DNA from: a virus
Virus record (IMG/VR): IMGVR_UViG_3300006805_000178
Location: 1 to 22,722 of that record
Direction: 5' to 3' (one strand)
DNA: 22,722 bases
The notes under the pieces were generated by a model. That model searched no databases, was not told where the DNA came from, and saw nothing but the letters and a program-made list of their open reading frames with translations. Both the position numbers and the translations under genes were made by a program. Below are positions 1 through 22,722 of the stretch, piece by piece. Numbering within the stretch: the stretch's first letter is position 1; each line of letters opens with the position of its first letter.

Positions 1-26
1 GTCTAAATTTAACAGAGGTGGGGCGA

Positions 27-49
27 CCTCCCCCCCTCCTCTCCCCCTA
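27..49. other. pyrimidine-only tract near the left edge
   Basis: Almost every base from 27 to 49 is C or T, mostly C. It lies just after a short hairpin (GAGGT at 15-19, ACCTC at 26-30), in otherwise AT-rich non-coding DNA. It could be a boundary, a packaging feature or part of a terminator for a gene to the left. I see no coding sequence in 1-178. Confidence 0.3.
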
Positions 50-117
50 TTTATTTATGAATTAAAAAACAAATTGAATACAAAATTTATTTACATTTAT
101 TTGCCAGTCACCGGCGC

Positions 118-146
118 TTGGTGGGGCTTGGTGGCGGTGATATAAT
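118..146 (+). promoter_or_regulatory. promoter of the glycan-modification operon
   Basis: A -35 element TTGGTG (118-123) and a perfect -10 TATAAT (141-146) are separated by 17 bases, and TG at 138-139 makes it an extended -10. Transcription would start near 153, about 26 bases before the GTG start at 179, leaving room for the GGAG ribosome binding site at 166-169. Confidence 0.75.
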
Positions 147-178
147 CATAAGTAATAAAAGAATTGGAGTATAAAAAG

Positions 179-1519
179 GTGATTGATTTAAGCATACTAG
201 TCTGCAGTGTTCACTCAAGATACAAAACATTTTTACCTAAGATACAAGAGCAGTTGTATGACCAACTTGCAGCGCTCTCAGAGGATGACCAGCAGCGCGT
301 AGAAATAATAGTGCTGACTGATAACAAACAGATGATGCTAGGTCACAAGCGCAATACAATGATTGATATTGCCCAAGGTAACTACATAGTCTTTGTAGAT
401 GATGATGACCGCATTGCTGATGACTACATAAGCACACTGCTCAATGCCACTGCCAAGGGTACTGATGCCATAGTATTTACAGCTATGGTGAGCCTCAATG
501 GTGAGCCAGCCAAGCCATGTTACTACTCTAAGGTGCATAGGCGTGACTACAATAAGCCTGATGCATACTACCGAATACCTAACCATATCTGCTGTGTTAA
601 GCGCTCAGTGAGCCTTAAAAGCAGCTTTCCTAACATCCTATACGGTGAGGATGCTGGCTATGGTAAGCTCTTGCTGCCACATCTAAAGACTGAGCATGTT
701 ATTGATAAGGTGCTTTACTACTATGACTACAACATTGACACCACAGAAACCCAAGGCTGGCGCAATAACAGCACCAAACAGCGACCCGGCAAGGCTATTG
801 TAGATGTGGTGATACTCTCTAAGGCTAGCAAATATAGAGATAGCCTAATGACTCAAAAAGCCATTGATAGCTGTATAAAGGGCGCTAATGGCTTGCCTAT
901 CAACATCATTGTCATGGAGGGTGGTGTTGGTCAGTACCATAACGCTGTTACCATTCCAAAGCGCGGCAAATTCAACTATAACCAATATGCTAATGAGGGT
1001 GCTGCGCTAGGTAAGGCTGATTGGATTATGATAGCCAACAATGACCTAGAATTTACTGATGGGTGGCTACATAACCTGCTCTCTGCTGACAATCCAGTAG
1101 TTAGCCCACATGAGCCAACTGATATGCGACAAAAGGGCATTATTGATAACCAGCTAGGCTTTGAATGCGGTAGGCACTTTAGTGGATGGTGCTTTATGGT
1201 GAGCCGCGAGTTATGGCTTAAGATTGGTAAGTTTGATGAGGATGTAGATTTTTGGTGCAGTGATGATGTTGTTATAGAGCAGGTCAGAGCAGCCGGTGTG
1301 ACACCAATGCTGGTAAAAGAGTCCATAGTGCGACATGCAGGCTCTGTGACCCTTAAACAGCAGCCAGAGGAAACAGCCAATGATTTAAAGTGGCGCAATG
1401 TGTTTATTTACAATACCAAGTACACTAAAAATAAGTTTGCGGACCATCCAAGTTACATTGCTTGGCTGCGCGACAATAAGGCATTAATAGAGGAGTTACA
1501 AAATGGGCTTACTAAATGA
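179..1519 (+). CDS. tandem-domain family 2 glycosyltransferase
   Basis: About 446 residues carrying two glycosyltransferase (GT-A fold) halves. The first half opens with the strand LSILVCSVHSR and has the acidic sugar-nucleotide/metal motif VDDDD. The second, from about residue 205, has DVVILSK, a second metal-type motif ANNDLEF and the late motif WCSDDV. Family knowledge: GT2 enzymes move a sugar from a nucleotide sugar to an acceptor, here unknown. An upstream TTG at 164 also opens the frame, but TTGGAG there is the ribosome binding site, so I choose GTG at 179. It is first in a four-gene operon and overlaps the methyltransferase by 17 bases. The acceptor could be virion protein, cell-surface glycan or DNA; the sequence does not say which. 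Soluble, with no membrane segment or signal peptide. Confidence 0.8.
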   Translation: MIDLSILVCSVHSRYKTFLPKIQEQLYDQLAALSEDDQQRVEIIVLTDNKQMMLGHKRNTMIDIAQGNYIVFVDDDDRIADDYISTLLNATAKGTDAIVFTAMVSLNGEPAKPCYYSKVHRRDYNKPDAYYRIPNHICCVKRSVSLKSSFPNILYGEDAGYGKLLLPHLKTEHVIDKVLYYYDYNIDTTETQGWRNNSTKQRPGKAIVDVVILSKASKYRDSLMTQKAIDSCIKGANGLPINIIVMEGGVGQYHNAVTIPKRGKFNYNQYANEGAALGKADWIMIANNDLEFTDGWLHNLLSADNPVVSPHEPTDMRQKGIIDNQLGFECGRHFSGWCFMVSRELWLKIGKFDEDVDFWCSDDVVIEQVRAAGVTPMLVKESIVRHAGSVTLKQQPEETANDLKWRNVFIYNTKYTKNKFADHPSYIAWLRDNKALIEELQNGLTK

Positions 1520-2120
1520 TATTGGGCTAAAGTACGATGCTGATAAGAGCAGCCGTTTGCATCATTACCTAGATTTTTACCAAAAGCATCTGCCGGACCA
1601 GTCATTTAGCGGCAGGCTGCTAGAGATTGGTGTTATGGATGGTCTGAGCATGAAAATGTGGCGCGAGTATTACCCTAATGCTGAGATTGTGGGCATTGAC
1701 ATTAAAGAGGATATGGCTAGCTATATGCATAACTCTGATTGGCAAGTGCCTGAAAGCGTTAAGCTCATTACCTGTGATGCAACTGACCCTAAGCAAGTAA
1801 AGGCTCTAGGCAAGTTTGACATTATCCTTGATGATGGTAGCCACTATTGGAGTCACCAGCAAAAGAGTTTTGAACTACTTTATTACTCACAGCTCAATAA
1901 AGGCGGCATCTACATAATTGAGGATTTATGGACCAGTGAGATAGACTTTTACGCTGATGCCAAAATTAATACACTAGAGTATTTAAACCAGCTCAAGAAA
2001 AAAGGCTTTAAAATGACATTCTTTAAACACAAACATAATGGACCGGGCATATCGGTTGCATTCCCTGATTACAAAGATTTGGATAGCCAAACTGTAGTTA
2101 TAAAGGCAGGGCAGAAATGA
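1503..2120 (+). CDS. class I SAM-dependent methyltransferase
   Basis: A 205-residue protein with the Rossmann-type motif I LLEIGVMDGLS (about 41-51), a following acidic residue at the end of strand 2 (VGIDI) and a motif IV-like FDIILDDGSHYW. These mark a class I S-adenosylmethionine methyltransferase; the DDGSH pattern resembles small sugar O-methyltransferases of antibiotic and cell-surface pathways. It starts inside the end of the glycosyltransferase gene with a good GGAG site 8 bases upstream and is joined to the next gene by an ATGA overlap, so the genes are translationally coupled. Inference: it methylates the sugar being transferred or built by its neighbours. Soluble, with no signal peptide. 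Confidence 0.78.
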   Translation: MGLLNDIGLKYDADKSSRLHHYLDFYQKHLPDQSFSGRLLEIGVMDGLSMKMWREYYPNAEIVGIDIKEDMASYMHNSDWQVPESVKLITCDATDPKQVKALGKFDIILDDGSHYWSHQQKSFELLYYSQLNKGGIYIIEDLWTSEIDFYADAKINTLEYLNQLKKKGFKMTFFKHKHNGPGISVAFPDYKDLDSQTVVIKAGQK

Positions 2121-2860
2121 TACTTATAGCCGGTGGCAAAGGCTTTATTGGTAGTCATGTTGCTAAGGTATTTGATGGGCTAGATGCCGGACTTTACGAC
2201 ATTGTAGACCTTAAGGATGGGCAAGACATTTGCAACCTTAAAGACACCAGCAAATATGATGTGATTGTGCTGCTTGCAGCCAACCTAGGGCATGATATGG
2301 ATATGTTCCAAGACAACCTAGCAATATACCGCTGGGCTGCCCGGCAATCTGCACACATTATTTATACAAGCTCTGCAGCGGTGTATGGTGACAACAATGC
2401 AGCTCATACAGAGAATGAGGCAACACCAGCACCTACTTTATACGGCAGGTCTAAGCTGATTGGTGAGCAAATCATTAGCCAAGCCTGCCAGCGCCGCACT
2501 ATTTTACGACTCGCTAATGTTTACGGTAATGGTGATGGTAATGGCGCAATAGACATATTTAAGCGTGGTGGTAATAAGATTTATGGCAATGGTGAGGATG
2601 TGCGCGATTATGTACATGTTTCTGTTGTGGCTGAGGCTATCAAGCGCATTGCTCTAAATCCAAGTGCCTACAATAAAGAAATATTTAATATATCTAGCTT
2701 TGTGCCAGTTACTACTAATGAGGCATACATGAAATACGCTAAAGCCTATCTGACTGAGGGCTTGCCGGCTGAATACCTGCCAGCGCGCGGTTTTGATGTT
2801 AGCTACTCACTGCTTTGGAATGCCAAGGCTAAAGAGGCTGGGCTGATAGATGCAAATTAG
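2117..2860 (+). CDS. NAD-dependent sugar epimerase/dehydratase (extended SDR)
   Basis: A 247-residue extended short-chain dehydrogenase/reductase. The N-terminal NAD-binding motif is GGKGFIGSH (about 6-14), a conserved TSSAAVYG segment carries the catalytic Ser region, and YGRSK gives the Tyr-x3-Lys catalytic pair. Family members epimerise or dehydrate nucleotide sugars such as UDP-glucose or GDP-mannose. It is somewhat shorter than typical GalE-type enzymes (about 310-330 aa), mainly in the C-terminal substrate lobe, so the substrate cannot be named. ATGA coupling to the methyltransferase and an 11-base overlap with the next gene place it in the glycan operon, where it would make the nucleotide-sugar donor. 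Confidence 0.8.
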   Translation: MILIAGGKGFIGSHVAKVFDGLDAGLYDIVDLKDGQDICNLKDTSKYDVIVLLAANLGHDMDMFQDNLAIYRWAARQSAHIIYTSSAAVYGDNNAAHTENEATPAPTLYGRSKLIGEQIISQACQRRTILRLANVYGNGDGNGAIDIFKRGGNKIYGNGEDVRDYVHVSVVAEAIKRIALNPSAYNKEIFNISSFVPVTTNEAYMKYAKAYLTEGLPAEYLPARGFDVSYSLLWNAKAKEAGLIDAN

Positions 2861-3500
2861 TGTTACCGTCATGGCTGTGCCAGCGCGTAAGCTGCAGGCT
2901 GAGTATCTAGCGGCTATATTGCGGTATTACCCATTTAGCGATGTTTCAGTTACCTATGATGAGGTTGCAGCCGGTACGCATGAGTCAGAATGGCTTAATG
3001 GTAAAAGCTCGCTACTGGCTGGTGTTGGTAAAGGTGATTGGCATGTAGTTATTCAGGATGATGCCATACTGACACCTAATTTGTATGAAAACATTGAGGG
3101 CGCTATAAACAATGTGCCTACTAAATCAATCATATCGCTCTACACTGGCAAAGCGCGCCCATTCCCTGAAAGGGTCAAAGAGGCGGTCAATAAAGTGGTA
3201 GATGAGACCTTTTTGCAGTACATCCTGCTTATGTGGGGTGTGGGCATCGTAATACCTACTAGCCACATTGAGCCATTGCTTGATTTTGTTGCGGACCGCA
3301 CAGAGCCTTATGACACTCGCATTGGTATCTTTTACCAGCGCAACCGCTTGCCTGTTTATTACACTATGCCAAGCCTTGTAGACCATGATGATGACTTAGG
3401 CACTGCAATACCCGGACATGGCACAAAGCCCGGTGCTAGAGTCGCACATAGGCTTGCTACAGGACCAGTCAAATGGCACAACAAAGTAATCACCATCTAA
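2850..3500 (+). CDS. glycosyltransferase-like protein
   Basis: A 216-residue soluble protein starting with a strand (QISVTVMAVPAR) and carrying WHVVIQDDAIL at about 63-73, a DxD-like acidic motif at the end of a beta strand as in GT-A enzymes. Later segments (SLYTGKARPFP, MWGVGIVIP) and the C-terminal VDHDDDLG look like the GT25-like or phage-specific glycosyltransferase group known from other siphophages. The ATG overlaps the end of the epimerase gene by 11 bases. It is last in the operon and followed by a terminator. The acceptor is unknown. The assignment rests on the motif pattern and context, so it is less certain than for the first gene. Confidence 0.6.
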   Translation: MQISVTVMAVPARKLQAEYLAAILRYYPFSDVSVTYDEVAAGTHESEWLNGKSSLLAGVGKGDWHVVIQDDAILTPNLYENIEGAINNVPTKSIISLYTGKARPFPERVKEAVNKVVDETFLQYILLMWGVGIVIPTSHIEPLLDFVADRTEPYDTRIGIFYQRNRLPVYYTMPSLVDHDDDLGTAIPGHGTKPGARVAHRLATGPVKWHNKVITI

Positions 3501-3504
3501 TACA

Positions 3505-3529
3505 GAAAAACGCCCCTAAAGGCGCTTTC
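3505..3529. terminator. bidirectional intrinsic terminator
   Basis: CGCC (3511-3514) pairs with GGCG (3521-3524) around a six-base loop, extended by flanking A and T bases. The run of five A on the left (3506-3510) becomes a U-tract for minus-strand transcripts, and the TTT on the right serves the plus strand more weakly. It sits between convergent operons ending at 3500 (+) and 3647 (-). Confidence 0.65.
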
Positions 3530-3552
3530 CTGCTTTAAACCACACCTCACGA

Positions 3553-3636
3553 GTGGGTTAGGGCTGGCTGCTGCAACTGCATTACTGCATTCGGACCATT
3601 GAACTATATTAAACCCACATGGGGTACGCACCAGCC
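3553..3636. repeat. interleaved inverted repeats, possible structured RNA
   Basis: GTGGGTT (3553-3559) is complementary to AACCCAC (3612-3618), and GGCTGG (3562-3567) to CCAGCC (3631-3636). The two pairs interlock, a pseudoknot arrangement. A small TGCA-loop-TGCA hairpin (about 3576-3590) lies between. The stretch is non-coding on both strands and would be the 3' untranslated end of the minus-strand operon. Confidence 0.4.
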
Positions 3637-3646
3637 TTGTGCTATT

Positions 3647-4069
3647 TTACTCAGCTAAATCAGACAGGGCAAATACAACGCCCCGGCAAAATTTATCACC
3701 ATCCTCTAGGACATCAAAATAAGCAGCGTTTGGTATGTTGGTCTCAATGTACCAACTGTAATCATTGGTAGACCACTGAGCATCAATTTTAAGTTTGGCA
3801 TTCAAGCCGCGTTGTATAGCGCTGCAATGGTCACAAGCCTCATCACAGCCAGTAATCATGCAATCTTTATCAAACATGATAACAACACCATCATAAGCGC
3901 CTACCTCATCATAAATAGCGCCCTCAAATTCTACATTGTCATCAGAGTAGCCAGTTACAATAACCAAGCCATTGGCTTTAGCCATGTTTAAATCATCCTC
4001 TGCGATTTTATTACCATATTCCATGCCATTTAGCTTTTGCGCTAGGTACTGTGGGTGTGTTAGTTCCAT
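3647..4069 (-). CDS. conserved phage protein of unknown function
   Basis: A 140-residue acidic, soluble protein. It has a segment GAIYDEVGAYDG, a cysteine cluster CDEACDHC (about 75-82) and a C-terminal part ending in CRGVVFALSDL. I recall similar small proteins (KANGLVIV, EIGAY, CRGIVFAL) in many phages, always as hypothetical proteins; no function is known to me. The clustered cysteines could bind a metal. A GGAG site 10 bases before the ATG sets the start. It is the last gene of the long minus-strand operon, followed by structured non-coding DNA and a terminator. Confidence 0.7.
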   Translation of the reverse strand: MELTHPQYLAQKLNGMEYGNKIAEDDLNMAKANGLVIVTGYSDDNVEFEGAIYDEVGAYDGVVIMFDKDCMITGCDEACDHCSAIQRGLNAKLKIDAQWSTNDYSWYIETNIPNAAYFDVLEDGDKFCRGVVFALSDLAE

Positions 4070-4075
4070 AATTAT

Positions 4076-4216
4076 TTACTCCTTAATTTCGTAATAACAG
4101 GTTATGTTTGCACAAATTACTTGTTCATATTTGTTTGTGGGTGGCTTAGTGGACATTGCAGCAATGATAAATATTGCCACAAAAAGAAACAGTACAAATG
4201 CTACAAAGTCTCTCAT
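4076..4216 (-). CDS. 46-residue single-pass membrane peptide
   Basis: A short gene: an N-terminal hydrophobic helix (FVAFVLFLFVAIFIIAAM, about residues 3-21) followed by a polar tail with two cysteines (ICANITC). Its ATG overlaps the stop of the winged-helix gene (ATGA at 4213-4216), and its own 3' end carries the GGAG site of the next gene, so it is embedded in the operon and very likely translated. Topology probably puts the cysteine tail outside the membrane. Function unknown; small phage membrane peptides often act in superinfection exclusion or host inhibition, but nothing here proves it. Confidence 0.7.
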   Translation of the reverse strand: MRDFVAFVLFLFVAIFIIAAMSTKPPTNKYEQVICANITCYYEIKE

Positions 4217-4710
4217 TGCCCTGCAATCCTATAGAGGAATGTGTTACTAGCTCTGCCATTCTTAAGGTATTGGCGCTCTGTTACGATGTTATGCCCATCC
4301 TTGCGTAACTCAAATATAGTGCCACCATATCGCAAGCTAATGCGTGACAGCTCAAAATTGAATGCACCGCCGGGGCGCTTAATCATTTCAAGCACTCTAC
4401 CATGCTGGGTTTTATTCTTGAGCTTTGTTTTGCCTATATGTGCTGGCAACTCATACTGCGGTAGCCTAGCCCTGCCATTGAGCTTAATGCCCTCTTGCAG
4501 ATACGCCAGTATTACTTTGTTAGCAGTTTGAATGCCTGTTTGCCTACGCATCTGCAGCACAATGCTTTTTGTACCAGCCGCGCACATCGCAATGTATTCC
4601 ATTTGGTGTGTAGTCAGCTCTATATTGAAATACGCTTTGGCAAAGCGCTCAATGTCTGATATTTGCCTTTTGCCCATTGGTTGTATTGCCGGTGGTTTAA
4701 CTTGCGGCAT
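4213..4710 (-). CDS. winged-helix DNA-binding-like protein
   Basis: A 165-residue basic protein. The N-terminal part (about 17-75) is helical, with MRRQTGIQTANKVILAYL resembling a helix-turn-helix. The C-terminal part, from TQHGRVLEMIKR (about residue 103), has the order helix, helix, LRYGGTIFELRKDGHNI, then a beta hairpin, the pattern of a winged helix seen in many phage proteins (recognition helix followed by ELRxxGxxI). Start chosen by AAGGAGG nine bases upstream; it overlaps the preceding gene by 14 bases and the next by 4. Likely a DNA-binding regulator or replication accessory, but the target is unknown. Confidence 0.65.
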   Translation of the reverse strand: MPQVKPPAIQPMGKRQISDIERFAKAYFNIELTTHQMEYIAMCAAGTKSIVLQMRRQTGIQTANKVILAYLQEGIKLNGRARLPQYELPAHIGKTKLKNKTQHGRVLEMIKRPGGAFNFELSRISLRYGGTIFELRKDGHNIVTERQYLKNGRASNTFLYRIAGQ

Positions 4711-6528: not shown

Positions 6529-6529
6529 G

Positions 6530-7876: not shown

Positions 7877-7905
7877 CGTAACATAAACTACCTATAGTTT
7901 GTCAA
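7877..7905 (-). promoter_or_regulatory. promoter with operator-like inverted repeat
   Basis: On the minus strand TTGACA occupies 7905-7900, inside the last codons of the HAD gene. A -10 candidate (TATGTT or TGTTAC) lies 14-16 bases on, around 7885-7878, so the spacing is not ideal. Between them AAACTA-CCTA-TAGTTT (7885-7900) is a perfect six-base inverted repeat, a likely operator covering the promoter. Confidence 0.45.
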
Positions 7906-8350
7906 TACTATTTAGGTGTTTTATCACATTATCTGCAATCTCATCTGTTAAACCATCCTGCCATGTAGTGCGAAACAAATGCTGACCCCACAAAAAATCA
8001 TAGCTATCATCCAATATGGCGTACTGCTTTGTGCCGGGGTGTCGCTCTAGCCATTCCTTGATTTCAAAGCCCCGGTAGACCATACCCCACACTGCGCCGC
8101 GCTGCAGGTCTGCAGTCACATCAAAGAATTCGCACACCTCTTGCTCTGCCCATTTATGGCTATCAGGAAATAAGCGCCAGCTAGAGCTTAGGACCACTTT
8201 GCAGTTAGTCTCAGCTACTATGCGCCGTACCCGGTCAGCCATTACAGGATTTATGCCAATGAATTTAGTATTGCCTTGGCGCTCTCGCGTTTTTTGGTGG
8301 TTACAAACTCCATCAATGTCTAAAAACAATATTTTCAGATGCTGCCTCAC
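7892..8350 (-). CDS. HAD-family phosphatase domain protein
   Basis: From GTG at 8350 this is a 152-residue single-domain HAD hydrolase without a cap. Motif I is LFLDIDGV (D11 nucleophile, D13 acid), motif II is VVLSSSW and motif III/IV is AILDDSYDF. Such small HAD proteins in phages and RNA-repair systems remove phosphate from nucleotides or nucleic-acid ends (the polynucleotide-kinase 3'-phosphatase and Swiss-army-knife RNA repair groups). The substrate here is unknown. The frame extends to a TTG at 8383, but AAAGG is spaced 7 bases before the GTG, so I prefer that. The start overlaps the 48-residue membrane gene by 38 bases. Confidence 0.75.
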   Translation of the reverse strand: MRQHLKILFLDIDGVCNHQKTRERQGNTKFIGINPVMADRVRRIVAETNCKVVLSSSWRLFPDSHKWAEQEVCEFFDVTADLQRGAVWGMVYRGFEIKEWLERHPGTKQYAILDDSYDFLWGQHLFRTTWQDGLTDEIADNVIKHLNSIDKL

Positions 8351-8459
8351 GCCGTTGCCTTTCAAAATTATTATTACCCTCAATCCACCAAGAGTAGACC
8401 ACTAAGCTATATAGTACCAAAGCCACTAGCAATAACAGCCACCATAACCGCCGGCGCAT
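8313..8459 (-). CDS. 48-residue membrane peptide
   Basis: The peptide begins MRRRLWWLLLLVALVLYSLVV, a basic anchor followed by one hydrophobic helix, and ends in a charged tail of about 25 residues. Its ATG shares a base with the stop of the upstream gene (TAATG at 8457-8461), a clear coupling signal. Topology is probably N-terminus inside, tail outside, as in spanin-like or exclusion peptides, but no function can be assigned. Confidence 0.6.
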   Translation of the reverse strand: MRRRLWWLLLLVALVLYSLVVYSWWIEGNNNFERQRREAASENIVFRH

Positions 8460-9661: not shown

Positions 9662-10402
9662 ATGAAACGCTTACTAACTACACTGCTGACCGTATCAATC
9701 ATAGCTACGCCATCAGCCGCTGCAGCGCAATCAACATTGCCAATATCAAAGCAGTTTGACCTATTTACTTTACAGGTATTAGATAAACCTGCAGTACAAA
9801 ACATTACAATCACGCCACCTAAAGAAACAAAGCCGGTTGCAGAGCCTACAAAGCCTGAGCCGGTTATTTATTTGGTGGTCAGTGGTGACAACCTCACTAA
9901 GATTGGTAGCGCCTACAATGTGGAATGGCAACGCCTGTGGGCTAAAAACACTCAGCTCACTCACCCGGACCTTATACATGTTGGTGACCAAATAACCATT
10001 CCTGAGCCGTATGAGCAGCTTACGCGCGAAATACCGGCACAAGTATCACTGCCAGCCACAACGCCCAATGCAGCGCCTGTGCGCGACTATGGCGGTGGTA
10101 ATGGCTATGACTATGGGTACTGCACTTGGTATGTTAAAAACCGGCGGGGCGCATCAATCCCTAATAACCTAGGCAATGCCAATACTTGGTATAGCCGGGC
10201 TGCAGCAGCCGGCATGTCTGTAGGCTCTGTGCCTAGAGCTGGCGCTGTTGGTACAACTACTCGCGGCTCACTTGGGCATGTCATCTATGTGGAAAGCGTA
10301 AATGCTGATGGGTCTGCCAATATATCTGAAATGAATGCACCTACATGGGGCGCTGTGACATATCGCACAGCCGGCGCTGGTGAGTTCGTATACATCTACT
10401 AA
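9662..10402 (+). CDS. secreted LysM-CHAP peptidoglycan hydrolase
   Basis: A 246-residue exported wall enzyme. A Sec signal peptide covers about 1-22 (MKRLL, hydrophobic core, SAAAAQ). A proline/lysine-rich linker leads to one LysM domain (about 68-114: YLVVSGDNLTKIG...LIHVGDQITIP), which binds glycan chains of peptidoglycan. The C-terminal CHAP domain (about 146-246) has the catalytic cysteine in YCTWYV (C154), the histidine in GHVIYV (H206) and SEMN. CHAP enzymes cut peptide cross-links or act as amidases. GAGG lies nine bases before the ATG. It is alone on the plus strand with its own promoter and terminator, away from the holin/endolysin pair, so it may serve wall remodelling, entry exclusion or release rather than timed lysis. 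Similar proteins are common in Saccharibacteria (from memory). Confidence 0.85.
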   Translation: MKRLLTTLLTVSIIATPSAAAAQSTLPISKQFDLFTLQVLDKPAVQNITITPPKETKPVAEPTKPEPVIYLVVSGDNLTKIGSAYNVEWQRLWAKNTQLTHPDLIHVGDQITIPEPYEQLTREIPAQVSLPATTPNAAPVRDYGGGNGYDYGYCTWYVKNRRGASIPNNLGNANTWYSRAAAAGMSVGSVPRAGAVGTTTRGSLGHVIYVESVNADGSANISEMNAPTWGAVTYRTAGAGEFVYIY

Positions 10403-10677: not shown

Positions 10678-12198
10678 TCATACCATTATGGATTGACTGC
10701 TACCACTGGTAGTTTTTTCTTTTTTAAACCTGATTGCACCGTAGTAAGCAAAAGCGGCTGCCTCTGTGGGGTCACTCTGTATATCTGCATTCATACTGGC
10801 ATAACCAAACATACCATCTTTACCAATGGACCGCTTTTTAACAGTACGGATTGAGACATTGAGCGCCGGCTGATTAAAATGAGTCAGTAGTTTTTGCTCA
10901 ATGGCATTGTGGAATGCAGCATAAGCCGCGCCAGCCTCTTTTACATTAGGTGTGAGTATGCGCTTGGACATTTTCTTTTCAGTCCTAACTAACTCCTCTA
11001 CCAGTAGCTGTGTGCCGGCTGCGCCATCAATGATGATTTTGTTGCACTTACGCCAGCGGTTATTTTCCATGAAAAACATTACTAGCCATTGAGTGCCGGC
11101 GCTCATGGGCTTATGGTCTAGTATCTCAACATGGATTTTGGCATTATTCCAAACACCCACCGCTAAAGATACGCTGCTGCCGTCTGGCGCAAACTTAACC
11201 GCATACACTAGGCTTGGGTTATCATCCAGCTCTACTTTTTCAACTGCCAGCGCGGACCACAGCTCATCAGAGATAGCGCGCAATGTTTCTACCCCGGCAA
11301 TCCAGCCAAGGCGCATTTTATTAAAGCTATCCACTGCCATTTTGACAGCCTCATTTTTAACAGCGCGGACCATTAAGAAATAGCCAAGGCTTGGGTTAGC
11401 CTCATACCATGCATCCTCATCTTGTGGGTCTCGCATAGTTTCAACTGACCACTCTTGCCAGCAGGTCTCAACATCCTTGCCATCAATAACTGATTTTCTT
11501 ACGCGCATGAATACAGTACCGCTAGAGCCACCGCTTGGCGGTGTACCTGCCCTGATGGTTTGGCTGTTTTGTGATTTACCGGCTGAAATGGTAGGTAGCA
11601 ATGCCTCCTGCTGGGCATCGGTTTCCTCTTGGTCCTCATCCAGTATTAGGCAGTCATTGGTCATACCCAAGCCCCCGGTGCGTGTCCTAGTACGGAATTG
11701 GCATACACCTTTGTTGCGTAATTCTACATAGTCAAAGCTCTTAGGCTCTTTATCAAATTCCTCAGTTAGTAGGTCTCTAATTTCCTCCTCAGCATCATAG
11801 AAAAACCTGAGTACGCGTCGCTTAATGGCTGACACTGTTTTATCAGAGTGGGCGGTGTATACTAGCGACTCACCCAAAAAGACCATGCCGCCAATGATGC
11901 GCGCAATAAGCAGCTCTGATTTACCGTTTTGCCGGGGTACTAGCAAGCCACACTCTGGGTTTACCCATTTCCATTGACCATCAGCATCTTGCTCTACCGC
12001 CATCCACCTATAGAGAATTGCTTTTTGCCAAGGTAGCAGCACAATGCCGTAATGCTCAAGCAGCCGTATTGTTTTGTCAGCAAGCCAGATGTCACCATTT
12101 TTATAAATATCTATGCGCGGCTTTTGATTGCCATAACGCTTTTTAGGTGTCTGGCTATTGGCTTTGGGTGTGCCTTTAGATTTGCTGGCTTTTATCAT
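10678..12198 (-). CDS. terL: terminase large subunit
   Basis: A 506-residue two-domain packaging motor. The ATPase half has Walker A VPRQNGKS (87-94), Walker B LILDEDQ (184-190) and a coupling-type motif QTIRAGTP (213-220). The C-terminal RuvC-like nuclease half has candidate metal-binding acidic residues at D339, IIIDG (D391) and DPTEAAAFAYYGAIR (D477). In phage assembly TerL docks on the portal, pumps DNA into the procapsid and cuts the concatemer. Length is normal for the family (about 450-600). The ATG overlaps the TerS stop by 4 bases. Downstream is only a terminator: the portal gene that usually follows terL is not here. Confidence 0.95.
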   Translation of the reverse strand: MIKASKSKGTPKANSQTPKKRYGNQKPRIDIYKNGDIWLADKTIRLLEHYGIVLLPWQKAILYRWMAVEQDADGQWKWVNPECGLLVPRQNGKSELLIARIIGGMVFLGESLVYTAHSDKTVSAIKRRVLRFFYDAEEEIRDLLTEEFDKEPKSFDYVELRNKGVCQFRTRTRTGGLGMTNDCLILDEDQEETDAQQEALLPTISAGKSQNSQTIRAGTPPSGGSSGTVFMRVRKSVIDGKDVETCWQEWSVETMRDPQDEDAWYEANPSLGYFLMVRAVKNEAVKMAVDSFNKMRLGWIAGVETLRAISDELWSALAVEKVELDDNPSLVYAVKFAPDGSSVSLAVGVWNNAKIHVEILDHKPMSAGTQWLVMFFMENNRWRKCNKIIIDGAAGTQLLVEELVRTEKKMSKRILTPNVKEAGAAYAAFHNAIEQKLLTHFNQPALNVSIRTVKKRSIGKDGMFGYASMNADIQSDPTEAAAFAYYGAIRFKKEKTTSGSSQSIMV

Positions 12199-12989
12199 TT
12201 CTCAACATCCTCAATGGTTACTCTTGATGCAAAACTAGTGTTACGCCTACCCCCACCATTTGATGCAGGGCGCTTTTTGCCCTCAGTATTAGCGACCTTT
12301 GCGCCGGGCATACCCTCTAGCAACTGCCCAAGCACTGTAGTCTTTTTAGGACCAATGCGCTTTTCATAATCACTAATGGCTGTCATAACCTCAGTCAATT
12401 CACGCGCCAGAGCCGCCGTATCGCGCGCCCCTGCGCCTTTTTCTAGTTTCTCGGCTAACTTATCGCGTGTTGCCATTAAAACGCCCATACGGTCATTCTT
12501 GAGCGCCATAGCCATAATGCCAGTACCCTCTTTGGCTTTTGGACCACTCAAAGTAGATTGGTGGATTTTAGCAATGCGCTGCGGATTACTGATAATGTCG
12601 TGCCACATGCGTAACGCGCTGTATGCCTCAGCATCTAGCATGTCCTGCCCAATTTTTACCAGTAAGCGAATGTGACTAGCCGGAAAGCTCTTAAAGTAAT
12701 TAAGCCAGTGGTCATAGTCTGGCTGCTTTTTAATCTTAATCTTTAGTTGTTGCTCATTGTAGATTTCGCACAGTGCTTTAAATTCATCTATTCCTAGTGA
12801 GTAAAAACGCTTTTCAAACATTGCCTGCGTAAATACTGGTTTTGCAGGTTTCTTTTTCTGAGCAACTTTTTTACTCGGTTTTTTGACAGCAGCTTTAGTA
12901 GCTGCCTTTTTTTTAACAGGCAGTGACTTATTTTCTAACACCTCTTTTATAGGGGTGGGCTTTTCACTCGCCTTGCGCTGTTTTGGCAT
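12195..12989 (-). CDS. terS: terminase small subunit
   Basis: A 264-residue protein directly upstream of terL. The first 55 residues are very rich in Lys and Ala (TKAAVKKPSKKVAQKKKPAKP), a flexible DNA-binding tail. The core contains ALRMWHDIISN and MGVLMATRDKLAEKLEKGAGARDTAALARELTEVMTAISDYEKRIG; the pattern of LxxxRDxLAxxL, then ARDxAALxRxLxEVxxxI is typical of small terminase subunits of siphophages of actinobacteria and relatives. TerS binds the packaging-initiation site and loads TerL. Longer than many TerS (about 150-180 aa) because of the tails at both ends. Confidence 0.78.
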   Translation of the reverse strand: MPKQRKASEKPTPIKEVLENKSLPVKKKAATKAAVKKPSKKVAQKKKPAKPVFTQAMFEKRFYSLGIDEFKALCEIYNEQQLKIKIKKQPDYDHWLNYFKSFPASHIRLLVKIGQDMLDAEAYSALRMWHDIISNPQRIAKIHQSTLSGPKAKEGTGIMAMALKNDRMGVLMATRDKLAEKLEKGAGARDTAALARELTEVMTAISDYEKRIGPKKTTVLGQLLEGMPGAKVANTEGKKRPASNGGGRRNTSFASRVTIEDVEK

Positions 12990-13001: not shown

Positions 13002-13496
13002 CTACTCCGTTGGTGACTCTGATAATTCAAAATGATGCCCACAGTTTGGGCATGTTACCTCATGCGTTTTGTAATCATCTTTGTCAGCTTTATCATCATC
13101 ACCGCCGCCGGTAAATTTAAAGTCAGCGCCCCAATCCTGCAGCTCATCCATATCCCACTCATTGGCTAATATGTCGCTATCCCAATCACCGCTGTGGGCA
13201 TTGTCTTTAATGATAAACTCACGCTTTTTGGCATCAGTTAAACCTAGGACTTGCTTAACTCGCACATCCTCATATTGTAATTCCTCTAGCGCATAGGTGC
13301 GTTTGTCACCGGCTAGAATAAGCAGGTTTTCATCAACAACAATTTCCCTGATGTCTTTCATTTCAGGAAATTCTTGCAGAGATTTCACCAGCTCTTTATG
13401 CTTTTTTGATTTTATATAGCGAGGGTTTTTAGTGTTGTGTACTAGATTAGCTAGCTTTTCAACATAAATTTTTACCTCAAACTCTTGCTTGCCCAT
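13002..13496 (-). CDS. ParB/Srx-like N-terminal domain protein with C-terminal zinc-ribbon half
   Basis: A 164-residue protein. The ParB/sulfiredoxin-like fold shows NPR (24-26) and LAGDKRTYALEEL (61-73, the place of the GxxRxxAxxxL nucleotide-binding motif). Then comes DNAHSGDWDSDILANEWDMDELQDWG (98-123 region), a stretch I know mainly from phage proteins in which the ParB domain is followed by an adenine/cytosine DNA methyltransferase. Here no methyltransferase follows; an acidic linker leads to CPNCGHHF (149-156). The AAAGGAGGAGG site is very strong. It heads the ParB-TerS-TerL operon, consistent with a role near DNA packaging or DNA modification. Nuclease activity is possible but unproven. 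Confidence 0.75.
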   Translation of the reverse strand: MGKQEFEVKIYVEKLANLVHNTKNPRYIKSKKHKELVKSLQEFPEMKDIREIVVDENLLILAGDKRTYALEELQYEDVRVKQVLGLTDAKKREFIIKDNAHSGDWDSDILANEWDMDELQDWGADFKFTGGGDDDKADKDDYKTHEVTCPNCGHHFELSESPTE

Positions 13497-16237: not shown

Positions 16238-16256
16238 AGTTTAATTCCTTATGGTT

Positions 16257-16262: not shown

Positions 16263-16264
16263 CC

Positions 16265-18448: not shown

Positions 18449-18451
18449 AAC

Positions 18452-19246
18452 CTAAAGCCACCTTTTTGTATAGATTGCTGCCACATCCACTGTGCGAGTT
18501 GTAAAACCGTCTGTATAAGTAATTGAGTTAGCGCCCGGCTCTAGCTCTAAGAATGTGCCATAATAATCTACTTCATTACCATTAATGGTAACTATGCGCT
18601 CTACACAATCAATTACTATTACATCGCCGGCTGTTAGACCCAAGCCATAAATCATCAATTCTTGGTTGTTATTATCATTTGAGATTTGCACATAGTCACC
18701 TGCGCCAGTCAAAGCATCTATAGTGATTGTGATTACTGGTAGCTGTGAGGGTGCATTTCCGCCCACTGTAGGCGTTTCAGTAAAGGTAGCAGATGTAAAG
18801 TTATTCTTAATAGTCCATAGGTCTGTAGTGCTTGTATCAAGCCCAAATGGATTAGTGCAGGTAATAGGCACTTGGAATACGGCAATATATGCGTTTTGCC
18901 GGCGCTGTATTCTTGGTGTACCTGCAGTGGCAATATAGCGCCTAGTGCCTGCGCCATATGTAATATCTAGGTTTTTATCTTTGCCAGTAAAATAGCCCTT
19001 AAAAGTATCAATGCGGCTGTCTAGGTCTGCTTGGCTACTGCCCTTTATAACGCCAGCTAGAGCTATAGGCTTGCTTGGGTAGTTGATTGCCGGTATTGAG
19101 CTGCCATCAGCATCTGCCAAGCCAAAAAGCCCCATGACCATATCAGGACCATCAGTATGGTCAATGACATTGGTAATAATGCCAGTGTCTGTTGCCGGGC
19201 TATAGGTCTGCAAGTTATTAGTATTAAAAGTTAGTGCGCCATTCAT
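18452..19246 (-). CDS. distal tail protein (Dit-like)
   Basis: A 264-residue protein located between tape measure and tail-associated genes, the standard place of Dit. The N-terminal part has short strands with KPIALAGVIKGSSQADLDSRIDTFKGYF and ITYGAGTRRYIAT, typical of the Dit ring domain (the loop-strand before the LDxxIDxF helix). The C-terminal part (about 150-264) is beta-rich, with GDYVQISNDNNNQELMIYGL and ITINGNEV-like segments of the second, galectin-like domain. It forms the hexameric ring joining tail tube to tip. Overlaps the tape-measure gene by 4 bases (ATGA). Confidence 0.8.
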   Translation of the reverse strand: MNGALTFNTNNLQTYSPATDTGIITNVIDHTDGPDMVMGLFGLADADGSSIPAINYPSKPIALAGVIKGSSQADLDSRIDTFKGYFTGKDKNLDITYGAGTRRYIATAGTPRIQRRQNAYIAVFQVPITCTNPFGLDTSTTDLWTIKNNFTSATFTETPTVGGNAPSQLPVITITIDALTGAGDYVQISNDNNNQELMIYGLGLTAGDVIVIDCVERIVTINGNEVDYYGTFLELEPGANSITYTDGFTTRTVDVAAIYTKRWL

Positions 19247-21171
19247 GCTGTTGCCCCTTGGTTTGGTGTCATCCCCATATCTACATAGATTGTATCGCGG
19301 TTAAGCTGTCTAAAGAATTCTTTTACAGCACTTTCATCAGCAAGCACAACTTTTTCAATATTTGTGGTTTGGTTTCTAGTAGTGTTGCCCATGCCTGCAG
19401 CGCCTGCGCCATAACCGCCGCTAGAGCCAAATGCTACTGATGCATCTACTACCGGGCTAGTCATGCCAGCTAGAGCCTTATTAGCCATGCTGTCTGCTGC
19501 TTTGGCTACCATATCGCTATTGGCATCAATACCCTGCGCTAAACCTGCAGGCACTTGCTTACCAAGCGCTGCAGCTACCCTTGATGGTGAGTGGATGCCT
19601 AGAGCTGATTTAATTGGACCGGGTATTTTATCCTTTACAAATCCAATGATTTTGTCTTTGAGCCATCCGCCCATATCTTGTATACCATTCCACAAGCCTT
19701 TGACTACATCTTTACCAATGTTAAGCAAGCTGCTTGGGCTGAGTACATTACCAATAGATTTAATAATATCCCATGATGCTTTTACTATGCCGCTTACCAT
19801 GCTCACCATGCCTGATATGACAGCTTTAAGTAGTTGCACACCTGCATTAATCATTGCGGCAATAAATGTAGGGTTGGTCAGCACAGCCAGAATGTTTTTA
19901 ATGATGACCGGCAGAGCCGCGACTAGGGCATTTACAATAATTGGTATTGCGGTAATCAGTGCCATCATAAGCTGCACCATGCCCATTAGGATAGCTTGCA
20001 GTGATGCTGGGTCAGTTAGGCTGGTAACAATGGCATTTACTATCTCTGGTATGGCTGTAGCAATGATTTGGATGATTTGCGGTAATGCCTGCAGTAGCGC
20101 TAGGAATAGCTGCACAAAGGCTTTAATTAGCATAGGCAATGCAGCAACCAATGTTTGGAATACGGTAGGCAGGGCAGTGATAAGCGCATTTAAGAGGTCT
20201 TGGACTGCAGTAATCAGAGCAGGTACTAATACAGGCAGTGCTTTAGCCAATGCCGGCACAAGCGCCTTTAGGACCGCGCCAATGCCTTGGACAATCTTAG
20301 GTAGCATGGCAACAATCTGCGGTATGGCAATCTCTATAGTGCCAAGCAGCGAGTCTACAAAGCCGTCAATATCGCCTTGCCCGGCTAGTAAGTTATCAAA
20401 TGCTTTTTTGGTTGTGTTTAGGCTGCCTGATAGTGTCTCATTCTCTTTTGCGTAGTTACCGGCATACTTAGCCGTCTTTTCCATAAACATCTGCTGTGCC
20501 AAGCCAATTTTCTCTTGGGCAGTCATTGATGCGGTAGATTTATCAATGCCCTTGGAAACTGCGTATGCTTGGATGCTGGTATCATTCATAGCCACACCTA
20601 AGTTATCCATCATGGTAAAGTTGCCCTTAGCCATGCCGGTGACAGCCTCTAGCGCATCAGTTGTGCTAATACCCATGATAGATGCAATGTCTGAGGCGCG
20701 CTGCATACTGTCCGCGCTCATGGTCATTGACTGTTGGACACTAAAGCCAGCGCCTTGGAATAGAGACCCCATTTTGTTTGCGCCCTGCAAAAATTCTTGC
20801 TGTGATAACCCGGCGCTTGAATAGGCTGTTTTGGCTTTTTCTTGGATGCCCTTAGCAAACTCACCAAATACTGCCTCAGAGCCGCCTAGTTGCTGCTCTA
20901 GCTCTGCTGCTGACATAACGGCTTTAGTAGTCAGTGCGGCAAGCCCTGCAGCGCCTGCAAGCATACCGCCGGCAATGGCAATGCCAGCGCCCTTAGCAAA
21001 ACCGCCTAGCTTACCTAGTGCGTTTTGAAATGGACCGCTGCTTTTCTCTACCTCCTCGCCCAATGCAGCAGTAGCCGGACCAGCAGAGCCTTTAAATCCA
21101 GCGGCAATTTTGCCTTGGATGCCCTGCATGTTCGGGGTTACTCTAACTGTTGCTGTTCCAATGTCTGCCAT
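19243..21171 (-). CDS. tape measure protein
   Basis: A 642-residue protein rich in Ala, Ile and Leu. The N-terminus ADIGTATVRVTPNMQG is a common tape-measure start; a glycine-rich hydrophobic segment follows at about 60-85; the part around 90-260 (EQQLGGSEAVFGEFAKGIQEKA...ASDIASIMG) is the conserved PhageMin_Tail-type domain. The middle (about 285-470) is a long run of hydrophobic helices; the C-terminus has GIHSPSRVAAALGKQVPAGLAQGI. It sets tail length and is ejected with DNA. Using about 0.15 nm per residue, a tail of roughly 95 nm is expected (inference). The ribosome binding site is weak. Confidence 0.93.
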   Translation of the reverse strand: MADIGTATVRVTPNMQGIQGKIAAGFKGSAGPATAALGEEVEKSSGPFQNALGKLGGFAKGAGIAIAGGMLAGAAGLAALTTKAVMSAAELEQQLGGSEAVFGEFAKGIQEKAKTAYSSAGLSQQEFLQGANKMGSLFQGAGFSVQQSMTMSADSMQRASDIASIMGISTTDALEAVTGMAKGNFTMMDNLGVAMNDTSIQAYAVSKGIDKSTASMTAQEKIGLAQQMFMEKTAKYAGNYAKENETLSGSLNTTKKAFDNLLAGQGDIDGFVDSLLGTIEIAIPQIVAMLPKIVQGIGAVLKALVPALAKALPVLVPALITAVQDLLNALITALPTVFQTLVAALPMLIKAFVQLFLALLQALPQIIQIIATAIPEIVNAIVTSLTDPASLQAILMGMVQLMMALITAIPIIVNALVAALPVIIKNILAVLTNPTFIAAMINAGVQLLKAVISGMVSMVSGIVKASWDIIKSIGNVLSPSSLLNIGKDVVKGLWNGIQDMGGWLKDKIIGFVKDKIPGPIKSALGIHSPSRVAAALGKQVPAGLAQGIDANSDMVAKAADSMANKALAGMTSPVVDASVAFGSSGGYGAGAAGMGNTTRNQTTNIEKVVLADESAVKEFFRQLNRDTIYVDMGMTPNQGATA

Positions 21172-21237
21172 ATGGTTGGGTTTCTACCTTTTATTAAGCC
21201 AGTTTTACCGCAACCGTAGCGTGGTTTTATATTGTAA

Positions 21238-21246
21238 ATTATAACA
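21238..21246 (-). promoter_or_regulatory. extended -10 promoter of the tape-measure operon
   Basis: TGTTATAAT on the minus strand in the gap upstream of the tape-measure gene. The leader to the ATG at 21171 would be about 60 bases. No clear -35. Confidence 0.55.
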
Positions 21247-21259
21247 TAACCTGTTTGAG

Positions 21260-21547
21260 TTAGCGCCCGGCATCTTTTGCCCTAGCCAGCACATAATGCC
21301 CAATGTAGTTTTGGTGGGCATTGCCGCCCTCAGCTTTGATTTCAGCAATGGCGCGCACACCGCGCTTAATAGTGCCTATCCTAGTGCTTACAGAAATGGT
21401 AGGCGGTGTCTTTGACATACTGCCTGCCATTGAATTGGCGCGCGCTGCAATAGCCTCAGCCTTTTGTTTTACAACTGGCATTGCCATGACTGTAAGTATT
21501 TCCTCAGCGGCTGCAGTGTCCAAATAAAATGATGTGTCACTACTCAT
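21260..21547 (-). CDS. small head-tail connector-like (HK97 gp10-like) protein, probably leaderless
   Basis: A 95-residue protein: acidic N-terminus, one long helix (AAEEILTVMAMPVVKQKAEAIAARANSMAG), then strands (TISVSTRIGTIKRGVRAIAEIKAEG) and HQNYIGHYVLARAKDAGR. The order of helix with ARAxxxA, beta hairpin and short C-terminal helix matches the small neck/tail-completion proteins of siphophages. These usually lie upstream of the major tail protein; here it is between chaperone and tape measure. No ribosome binding site; TATACT ends seven bases before the ATG. The assignment is tentative. Confidence 0.5.
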   Translation of the reverse strand: MSSDTSFYLDTAAAEEILTVMAMPVVKQKAEAIAARANSMAGSMSKTPPTISVSTRIGTIKRGVRAIAEIKAEGGNAHQNYIGHYVLARAKDAGR

Positions 21548-21554
21548 GCTTATA

Positions 21555-21560
21555 AGTATA
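21555..21560 (-). promoter_or_regulatory. -10 element placing transcription start at the ATG
   Basis: TATACT on the minus strand seven bases before the ATG at 21547, the same geometry as at 10577-10569. No convincing -35. Confidence 0.4.
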
Positions 21561-21586
21561 GCTCATGCGTAATGGTGATGCTATTG

Positions 21587-21756
21587 GTTACTCCCCTGCT
21601 CTGCCTTGGGTGTCGCTATAAAAAAAGCTGTAAGGTGTTTGACAGGCTGTAAATTTTATTATGATAGGGCAGGGGAGTGGTCACCACCCCTGTTAAGCGT
21701 TGCAATGCATACAATGCCACTTTTTGGCTAAAAAAGCCAGCAGGGGAGTGGTTTTA
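21587..21756. repeat. three copies of GCAGGGGAGT in hairpin-forming context
   Basis: GCAGGGGAGT occurs at 21669-21678 and 21740-21749 and, inverted, at 21590-21599. Each of the two direct copies begins a local hairpin with the same shape (AGGG, two-base bulge, GTG(G), loop, CAC, CCCT), and either can instead pair for ten bases with the inverted copy. A further TGGCT/AGCCA stem lies at about 21725-21739. The 206-base stretch 21548-21753 has no gene on either strand that I can support. Confidence 0.6.
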
Positions 21757-22167
21757 CACCCCTCGCGGTAGGGCAAGAATGCTTTTAATGTCATCCACAG
21801 TGCGCTTTTCAGTTTCCTTATTAATCTCACTAACAGGCTGGTCACCTTTAAGGAATTCAGGCACAAATGGCTTTGGCTTTTTGCGGTTGTGGGCGGCTCT
21901 CTCGCCTTTTTTAACCGGCGTATCTTGCCACAGTTTCAGCTCAAGTAGGTAATTGGCTTTGTTTAAAAAGGTCTCTTGCCATCCCCACTGTGCTGCAGGA
22001 TTAATGGCAGTAAACACCCGGCACTCACGCGGTAACTGAAACATCAGCCGCGCTGCTCTTTTGCGGCTGGTGGTTAGAATATCCGCGATGTCTAAATTAT
22101 AGTATTGCTGAAAGTCCGCCTCTAATTCGTCAGGATGCTCGCGGAGTACCTTGATTAGAGCTAGCCT
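21754..22167 (-). CDS. tail assembly chaperone, frameshift-expressed C-terminal part (T-type, DUF5361-like)
   Basis: This 137-residue segment has no start of its own with a ribosome binding site; it is read by a -1 shift from the upstream frame. It begins RLALIKVLREHPDELEADFQ and continues with YYNLDIADILTTSRKRAARL, LPRECRVFTAINPAAQWGW and LNKANYLLELKLWQDTP. The order HPExxxxDxxxYY, DIADIL and WGWxExxLNKxxYLLExLxWQ is that of the DUF5361-type proteins that form the C-terminal half of siphophage chaperones. The full fusion would be about 243 residues. The G and GT forms bind the tape measure and recruit tail-tube protein; neither is in the virion. An internal ATG at 22044 could give a shorter product but lies inside the domain. 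Confidence 0.8.
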   Translation of the reverse strand, partial: RLALIKVLREHPDELEADFQQYYNLDIADILTTSRKRAARLMFQLPRECRVFTAINPAAQWGWQETFLNKANYLLELKLWQDTPVKKGERAAHNRKKPKPFVPEFLKGDQPVSEINKETEKRTVDDIKSILALPRGV

Positions 22168-22484
22168 TTTGGGTCAAACTTCTCAATGATTGCAAGGTAA
22201 ACATCACTCAGCACTTCAATACGCATACGCGCTTTGTAGCCCTCTTGGTCTTTATGCGCCTCACCATCAGCAGCAACAAAGTGAGCTTTCAATTTCTCAA
22301 ATTCTTGCGCGCCCATGATGTGCTTAAGCAATGACAATACTACTGCAGTCTGCCCTTGGCTCTCAATGCGCTCAATATATTCTAGTGAGTCTACATCATC
22401 CAATAGGTCAGTATCTACATTAAATTTGTAGCCCTTAACATCAATTTCTTTTACGGTGTTTTGTGCTTGGTTGTTTTCATCCAC
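22161..22484 (-). CDS. tail assembly chaperone (G-type)
   Basis: A 107-residue acidic protein starting at GTG 22484 with GGAG eight bases upstream. It has IDVKGYKFNVDTDLLDDVDSLEYIERI and a helical second half (TAVVLSLLKHIMGAQEFEKLKAHF, RIEVLSDVYLAIIEKFDPKG). It lies between the major tail protein and tape-measure genes and has the low complexity and length of the G-type chaperone. The end of the gene holds a CCCAAAA slippery site that gives the longer GT product. The stop TAG follows six bases after the heptamer region. Confidence 0.78.
   Translation of the reverse strand: MDENNQAQNTVKEIDVKGYKFNVDTDLLDDVDSLEYIERIESQGQTAVVLSLLKHIMGAQEFEKLKAHFVAADGEAHKDQEGYKARMRIEVLSDVYLAIIEKFDPKG
22167..22173 (-). 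promoter_or_regulatory. -1 ribosomal frameshift site CCCAAAA
   Basis: On the minus strand the heptamer C-CCA-AAA (22173-22167) fits the X-XXY-YYZ rule in the frame of the chaperone gene, with TAG three bases beyond it. After slipping, the tRNAs re-pair perfectly with CCC and AAA, and reading enters the open frame that encodes the DUF5361-like half. G and GT proteins made this way are a hallmark of siphophage tail assembly. Confidence 0.82.
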
Positions 22485-22516
22485 AGCGATTGCTCCAATC
22501 CTTAATTAATATCCAA

Positions 22517-22525
22517 ATTATAGCA
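22517..22525 (-). promoter_or_regulatory. extended -10 promoter of the chaperone genes
   Basis: TGCTATAAT on the minus strand immediately after the terminator at 22531-22552. It restarts transcription for chaperone and downstream tail genes. The -35 region falls inside the terminator and is not consensus. Confidence 0.6.
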
Positions 22526-22530
22526 TAAAC

Positions 22531-22552
22531 AAAAACGCCCCGGATAGGGGCG
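22531..22552 (-). terminator. intrinsic terminator after the major tail protein gene
   Basis: Minus strand: CGCCCC pairs with GGGGCG (22552-22547 with 22541-22536) around five bases, followed by TTTTT (22535-22531). It lies 23 bases after the stop of the partial tail-protein gene, so that abundant transcript ends here and the chaperone is made from a separate, probably weaker, message. Confidence 0.8.
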
Positions 22553-22574
22553 CTCTTGCTGGCTGTGGTTGCTA

Positions 22575-22722
22575 CTAGCTACTAAGAGCTGTTGCAATAT
22601 ACTCTTTGTGAGTATCACCGTTTTCATCGGGATAAGCGACAAATACGGCAGGGTAGGCAATAGCCTCACCATCCACATAAGTGATTTCGCCACTGCGGTC
22701 TGCGATTTGTGCGTAAGGCACA
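22575..22722 (-). CDS. C-terminal end of a tail protein, probably the major tail protein (partial)
   Basis: Only the last 48 codons are inside the window: VPYAQIADRSGEITYVDGEA, then AYPAVFVAYPDENGDTHKEYIATALSS, followed by a double stop TAG TAG. Its place, directly upstream of the tail chaperone and ended by a strong terminator, is that of the major tail tube protein. The 5' part lies beyond the right edge, so the assignment is by position only. Confidence 0.55.
   Translation of the reverse strand, partial: VPYAQIADRSGEITYVDGEAIAYPAVFVAYPDENGDTHKEYIATALSS

Follow-up and report, generated by a model that had tools for sequence, protein, structure and literature searches.

Apparent elimination of the targets of many Type II restriction enzymes from a tailed phage that probably infects Saccharibacteria

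The DNA investigated in this study, which is the whole of the virus record IMGVR_UViG_3300006805_000178 (22,722 bp, 44.7% GC; hereafter the window), is very probably the product of restriction-site elimination, by which a tailed phage has rid itself of the targets of many Type II enzymes of its hosts; these hosts are probably Saccharibacteria (TM7, Candidate Phyla Radiation). We observed that the tetramers GATC, GGCC, TCGA and ACGT do not occur in the window at all, and that they are also absent from a longer record of this phage (G002; 33,759 bp), which consists of the window plus L038 and is 99.97% identical to the window over its first 22.7 kb. These exact counts of zero agree with a preliminary description of the window, in which the four words had been found missing by eye.

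With reference to base composition alone (zero-order expectation), the window should hold 86 GATC, 56 GGCC, 86 TCGA and 86 ACGT sites. The comparison with a Markov expectation that the description had proposed leads to the same result, as the second-order (maximal-order) model expects 47, 94, 7 and 11 sites, respectively, the values for TCGA and ACGT being just 7 and 11 because their trinucleotides are already low. Codon shuffles that keep the proteins and the codon usage of 29 open reading frames (ORFs; 19.4 kb) gave means of 58, 69, 37 and 36, and zero was never reached for any of the four in 200 shuffles. CTAG (101 against 86 expected), CCGG (94 against 56) and GCGC (198 against about 56) are ordinary or high in number, as had also been described, and of all 16 palindromic tetramers, 12 lie close to their zero-order expectation or exceed it. 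It had further been asked whether unrelated non-palindromic tetramers are equally depleted; none of them stands at zero, yet some are strongly low, including GAAG (13 of 177 expected), GACG (12 of 140) and GAAC (20 of 174). Of the pentamers that extend GAAG or GACG on either strand, GAAGA, CCTTC and GAAGC are absent and GACGC occurs once. The eight non-palindromic tetramer pairs composed of the letters A, C, G and T range from 43 of 174 (ATCG) to 296 of 174 (ATGC), with none near zero. Over-represented words were also noticed, namely CTGCAG (24 against 4.3), GCGC (198 against about 57) and CCSGG (42 against 25).

The loss acts on words and not on codons or composition, as displayed by the codon shuffles and by codon choice at the junctions where a word would be completed. 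Aspartate followed by C is never encoded by GAT (0 of 56, GAC being used in all 56), as against 258 of 331 elsewhere; glycine before C never takes GGC (0 of 61; elsewhere 246 of 448), and serine of the TCN codons before A never takes TCG (0 of 63; elsewhere 13 of 124). The same was observed for isoleucine after G (ATC 0 of 54; elsewhere 80 of 392), alanine after G (GCC 0 of 128; elsewhere 136 of 486) and threonine before T (ACG 0 of 61; elsewhere 24 of 361). A mutational, compositional or codon-usage bias of the phage or its host, which would remove words without any restriction enzyme, draws some support from the low GA/TC and CG dinucleotides (0.58–0.67) and from CGA and ACG at 0.23 and 0.29 of expectation, so that part of the TCGA and ACGT deficit already lies in the trinucleotides. 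Such a bias is nevertheless very unlikely as the explanation, since shuffles that preserve codon usage still expect 36–69 sites, codon choice flips solely at the word-completing junctions, close relatives drop or keep single motifs independently, and the pattern is missing from chromosome stretches of Saccharibacteria. Among 15 such stretches of 8–20 kb (five of 20 were dropped as shorter than 8 kb), which represent the host group and not a proven host, the ratio of observed to zero-order expected sites was 0.68–1.53 for GATC, 0.44–2.08 for GGCC, 0.59–1.88 for TCGA and 0.26–0.80 for ACGT. The same depletion in candidate hosts, which had been suggested as a check, was therefore seen mildly for ACGT alone, the other three words being near expectation.

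The avoided set is considerably wider than four tetramers. When the restriction sites listed in Biopython were tested with the same codon shuffles, the following were absent from the window (shuffle means in brackets): GGNNCC (35), GAAGA (28), CCWGG (27), CCTTC (26), GAWTC (21), GGYRCC (20), GDGCHC (19.5), CTGRAG (17.5), GRCGYC (13), GTYRAC (11), GGGAC (11), CAGCTG (10.5), CCRYGG (10) and CAATTG (10), while CCCGC and GACGC were found once each against about 22 expected. A few stray sites occur in the longer record (CCWGG 1, CCTTC 1, GAAGA 5, CCCGC 2). With elimination taken as less than 0.1 of expectation where more than about 15 sites are expected, 11 motifs are eliminated (GGCC, GATC, TCGA, ACGT, GGNNCC, CCWGG, GAAGA, CCTTC, GAWTC, GDGCHC and CTGRAG), all of them at zero against 17–69 in the shuffles. 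A maximal-order Markov test of the longer record likewise revealed 4 tetramers, 6 pentamers and 21 hexamers that are absent or nearly so. The asymmetric sites are empty or nearly empty in both orientations (GAAGC, GACGC and GGGAC 0/0; CCCGC 1/1; CCTTC 1/0; ACGGG 0/1; GAAGA 0/5 of about 36 each), suggesting Type II rather than Type III enzymes; avoidance in one orientation, in the Type III style, was considered and ruled out, as none of these sites displays it.

A general avoidance of palindromes or DNA structures, rather than of enzyme targets, could be thought of because 37 of the 64 six-base palindromes are missing from the window and because, among hexamers of the longer record that are free of shorter avoided words, 10 of 35 palindromic ones are purged as against 62 of 1723 non-palindromic ones. 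This is extremely unlikely to be the cause, given that asymmetric pentamers are purged too, that most palindromic tetramers are not low, and that CTGCAG (24), GCGCGC (16), TTTAAA (16) and GCCGGC (15) are common, so that there is no blanket palindrome loss. The description had also set simple palindrome depletion aside.

Comparatively, the breadth of the avoided set is larger than in the named phages, phage groups and chromosome stretches examined here. We counted the non-redundant specificities, among 436 listed sites, with an observed/expected ratio of at most 0.05 and at least 6 sites expected under a first-order Markov model, a null that inflates the index in real genomes, whose biases are of higher order. 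Over the first 19,282 bp, the window recorded 25, and its relatives 26 (G001), 28 (G004), 22 (L030), 17 (G007), 15 (G006) and 12 (G005); L034, at 18,601 bp, recorded 10 and the whole of the longer record 35. The named phages that served as yardsticks at the same length gave 12 (lambda), 11 (T7), 8 (phi29), 6 (the Helicobacter phage KHP30), 4 (Twort) and 1 (the Microcystis phage Ma-LMM01), and six Saccharibacteria chromosome stretches gave 0–1. At 18,000 bp, the window reached 26, while T7-like contigs (74 of 80) showed a median of 7.5 and a maximum of 15, Twort-like contigs (7 of 11) a median of 6 and a maximum of 7, LMM01-like contigs (5 of 13) a median of 1 and a maximum of 2, and nine Saccharibacteria chromosome stretches as well as 20 simulated sequences 0–1. 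The loci left out of this count (6 of 80 T7-like, 4 of 11 Twort-like and 8 of 13 LMM01-like) were shorter than 18 kb or contained N, and a lambda scan by the terminase large subunit (TerL; 80 loci) was omitted before counting, as it held near-identical prophages. The background thus comprises three phage groups and six named phages and is not a sample of all phages.

Relatives of the phage purge different sets of words, and targets have been gained and lost across the family. Searches with TerL yielded 27 viral loci, one of which is the same phage, and one locus from a cellular genome collection; the tree built from them has 28 rows (L003, the same phage as the window, has no separate row) and places the window within a clade of 10 rows with support 100/99. 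The minimum number of state changes on this tree is at least five for GGCC and RGGNCCY, at least four for CCWGG, TCGA and GACGC, and at least two for GATC, while no purge of GCGC, CGCG, CTAG, CATG, GTAC, AGCT or TTAA was observed in any of the 28 rows. Within the window's own clade, G003 harbors 50 GGCC sites against 39 expected, where G002 has none. The 4.8-kb locus L005 holds 13 GATC, 6 TCGA and 4 ACGT sites against 18 expected of each. Distant relatives purge other sets, such as CCGG, TCGA and GGCC in G007 and CCGG in L024, and L316, which was found through the LysM-CHAP gene described below, purges GGCC, CGCG and TCGA. Another contig with a LysM-CHAP homologue, L322, has CATG, GATC, CGCG, GCGC, CCGG and GGCC at 0–1 each; no TerL relative was seen in the examined stretch of L322, which makes this contig a putative member of the family. 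A library or assembly artefact, for instance a digestion that removed site-bearing DNA, has a practically negligible probability, since the pattern recurs in contigs of several metagenomes and one metagenome (3300025896) holds both G003, with its 50 GGCC sites, and G002.

Further afield, TerL matched 944 records of named phages, all below 60% identity and at about 34–35% among the 20 matches listed, and megablast of the window against named phages gave no match. The LysM-CHAP protein matched 495 plasmid records, all below 60% identity and none covering 80% of the protein.

The purge appears to be maintained at present, because drift would soon recreate the sites. When all synonymous or intergenic single changes that create one of 26 motifs were considered, about 14.8 sites would be gained per 1% synonymous divergence without selection, and 4 are present; this figure is rough, as overlapping motifs are counted repeatedly and every substitution is given the same probability.

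The host group is probably Saccharibacteria, as gene homology suggests. LysM-CHAP homologues were detected in 163 of 185 Saccharibacteria-class genomes at E ≤1e-10, the best being 49% identical over residues 14–246. Independently of these homologues, a TerL relative at 63% was detected in a metagenome-assembled genome (MAG) of Saccharibacteria (G008), on a contig that is possibly integrated or misbinned; at E ≤1e-30 this is the single genome with a TerL match among 392 of the class. That MAG carries two different TerL genes on two contigs, G008:C8 and G008:C9 (L050 and L051). A search of window positions 2801–22700 against 294 Saccharibacteria-class genomes gave no convincing match to a prophage or to a spacer of clustered regularly interspaced short palindromic repeats (CRISPR). 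Matches at E ≤0.01 were recorded in 44 of the 294, the strongest being 63% (the TerL of G008) and 70% (213 bases); of the others, many lie within the LysM-CHAP gene, and the 100% matches are just 22 and 24 bases long. The suggestion that the avoided set could identify the host was not borne out: the host group came from gene homology instead, and no host strain was found.

Restriction enzymes of suitable families are present in this group. In a scan of 54 of 189 ORFs from 20 methyltransferase neighbourhoods in host-group genomes, we detected DpnII and AlwI types twice each, and HaeIII, NgoPII, BpuJI, EcoRII-C, EcoO109I and ThaI types once each, besides a BbrUII/HgiDII-type enzyme. Most of these families, though not AlwI, were pinned to single ORFs, and they are among the first 25 listed of 32 (Pfam), 82 (PADLOC) and 57 (NCBIfam). 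The target sequences are those we take the enzyme prototypes to have (for example, CGCG for ThaI and GGNNCC for NgoBV). On this basis, the host-family targets GATC, GGATC, GGCC, CCWGG, CCCGT and RGGNCCY stand at 0–0.04 of expectation in the longer record, while GTCGAC has too low an expected count there for a ratio. Clusters of two or three C5 methyltransferase genes were also noticed in Saccharibacteria (L098:6935–10418, L099:6361–8474, L106:5393–9113 and L107:7207–9229), those of L106 flanking a BpuJI-type enzyme gene.

Selection by several restriction enzymes is supported as the best-fitting reading, because the loss is complete, acts at the level of words, is confined to the phage and involves targets that are swapped between relatives. 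In this mechanism, hosts of the lineage would carry many different Type II enzymes, unmodified phage DNA bearing their sites would be cut on entry so that site-free genomes survive, and mainly synonymous changes would have stripped nearly all sites of about 25 specificities. As few such systems were found in most of the individual host genomes searched, the breadth is most likely owed to a varied host population whose members the lineage encountered one after another. From these data we infer the matching enzymes as the cause, the host itself and the breadth at the population level. The preliminary description had likewise proposed several restriction enzymes, and that cause is supported, although the set numbers about 25 and not four and includes asymmetric sites; its other proposal, a methyl-directed cause outside restriction-modification, found no support.

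Several observations weigh against restriction by many host enzymes. Methyltransferases were found in 54 of 195 (C5), 30 of 195 (D12) and 64 of 185 (N6_N4) Saccharibacteria-class genomes, many of which are MAGs of unstated completeness, so that no typical host would carry 25 systems. DpnII was detected in 8 of 175 genomes, TaqI in 1 of 175 and the NgoBV family in none of 175, although GGNNCC is widely purged; this last absence is weak, as the control was silent, and TaqI and NgoBV are no unbiased sample, having been picked because their targets are avoided. A ThaI-type enzyme occurs in a host-group genome, yet CGCG stands at 2.05 of expectation in the longer record. Purging to this degree affects, as a base rate, 70 of the 387 listed sites there and 41 of the 104 palindromic ones, and the match between host enzymes and purged sites is only modestly above that rate, an agreement that is suggestive and not decisive. 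In the search for host systems with these targets that the description had proposed, enzyme families for GATC, GGCC and TCGA were detected, whereas ThaI does not agree and NgoBV was not found. Lastly, GAAC/GTTC occurs 34 times against 258 expected in the longer record (GAACG 0 and GAACC 1, but GAACA 19 and GAACT 14), and we know of no single well-known Type II site that this depletion matches.

The small number of methyltransferases per single Saccharibacteria genome would also fit a phage whose DNA has to survive the enzymes of two kinds of hosts, a Saccharibacterium and the bacterium it lives on. We consider this unlikely, as no link to a second host was found, the TerL matches among named phages are all below 60% identical, and enzyme families for many of the purged targets are already present in Saccharibacteria themselves.

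The genes of the window are those of a tailed phage. A tail tape-measure gene (19243..21171, minus strand; phrog_58, E 1.5e-54) and the genes at 16265–19246, including Dit (by phrog_33), indicate a long-tailed phage. The terminase large subunit used for the relatives and the tree (10678..12198, minus; phrog_9, E 1.3e-46) lies beside the small subunit (TerS; 12195..12989, minus; phrog_1459, E 6.5e-07), and the LysM-CHAP-like protein, with homologues in Saccharibacteria genomes, is encoded at 9662..10402 on the plus strand. One end of the phage harbors a cassette of glycosyltransferase, methyltransferase-fold, NAD-dependent epimerase and glucosyltransferase genes (164–3500, plus), of which the methyltransferase-fold gene (1503–2120) matches general and not DNA methyltransferase families. 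HNH endonuclease genes are found at 13601–14038 (plus; also a weak zinc-knuckle match) and at 15392–15706, and a scan of the window for transfer RNA genes gave none.

Self-methylation was examined as well. Profiles built from Saccharibacteria methyltransferases detected no C5, D12 or N6 gene in the longer record, the absence of N6 being weak because that profile comprises two sequences and was silent in every control. The 164-aa ParB-like protein (13002..13496, minus; best match phrog_620, 2.7e-23) has no methyltransferase domain; its match to the DNA methyltransferase family phrog_498 (633 aa; 1.4e-21) is confined to the N-terminal positions 30–161. The same profiles find C5 in G004, L005, L027, L036, L316 and L318 and, more weakly, in L031 and L032; a HAD-domain gene of the window (7892..8383, minus; PF18143) adjoins the slot that a C5 DNA methyltransferase occupies in some relatives. 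The C5 enzyme of G004 matched the HhaI and HaeIII methylases in the shared catalytic part alone. Replacement of the GGCC purge by a C5 methyltransferase was rejected, as G004, L316, L318 and L005 carry C5 and purge GGCC.

D12 genes occur in L012, L014, L026, L028, L029 and G006, with a fragment in G005, and L023 carries an N6 domain. The gene order in seven relatives is ParB, D12, TerS and TerL, the window being without D12 at this slot, and a search of the D12 protein against PDB sequences gave no match. GATC is kept in all seven D12-bearing contigs; among 13 contigs without D12 in which ParB and the small terminase were found, eight purge GATC and five (L024, L030, G007, L031 and L316) do not. 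A D12 methyltransferase as a substitute for the GATC purge is thus suggested as a lead only, because both traits follow the tree, on which GATC needs as few as two changes. It is conceivable, though rather doubtful, that the genome records, in negative, the joint Type II repertoire of a Saccharibacterium and its basibiont, and that the family switches between self-methylation, by cassettes in fixed slots, and total purge; in that case, the words missing from phages of uncultured bacteria could serve as a map of host immunity and host range.

If the elimination reading is true, restriction would be a strong and currently acting defence in Candidate Phyla Radiation bacteria, and the words missing from phages would allow the restriction specificities of hard-to-culture bacteria to be predicted. 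What is missing from the genome may thus mirror the enzymes present in its hosts, and the phage family would offer a natural experiment in how targets are gained and lost. Burstein et al. (2016; PMC4742961), in the part drawn on here, describe Candidate Phyla Radiation lineages as largely without CRISPR-Cas (CRISPR-associated) systems, with restriction systems well represented. No report on site avoidance in phages of Saccharibacteria or the Candidate Phyla Radiation was found among open papers.

With reference to known systems, the best reading is a known strategy at unusual breadth and in an extreme form, and not a new system. In the portion of Rusinov et al. (2018; PMC6286503) considered here, elimination is defined by two limits, a compositional bias below 0.1 and an expectation of more than 15 sites, and it was reported in 7.1% of orthodox Type II site-phage pairs and in less than 0.5% for other types, more frequently in non-temperate phages. 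The present phage resembles those in its loss of Type II sites, which in that portion is complete for some and concerns mainly phages with unmodified double-stranded DNA, and in both cases observed counts were set against expected ones; it differs in that about 25 specificities, asymmetric ones included, are lost from one genome. The figures are not directly comparable, because Markov models and codon shuffles were used here and the Burge compositional bias there. Several named phages also lack some sites entirely, such as GATC in Twort and GGCC in phi29, but they show 1–12 specificities against 25 in the window by the same count and length. Target avoidance in plasmids (PMC10359461) has, by the title and the start of the abstract, the same selective cause in mobile DNA, whereas here a phage genome displays total loss of many targets. 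Phage self-methylation by ParB-methyltransferase, C5 or D12 genes is the other escape from the same enzymes, and relatives of this phage carry such genes, while the phage itself differs from them in that no DNA methyltransferase was found in it.

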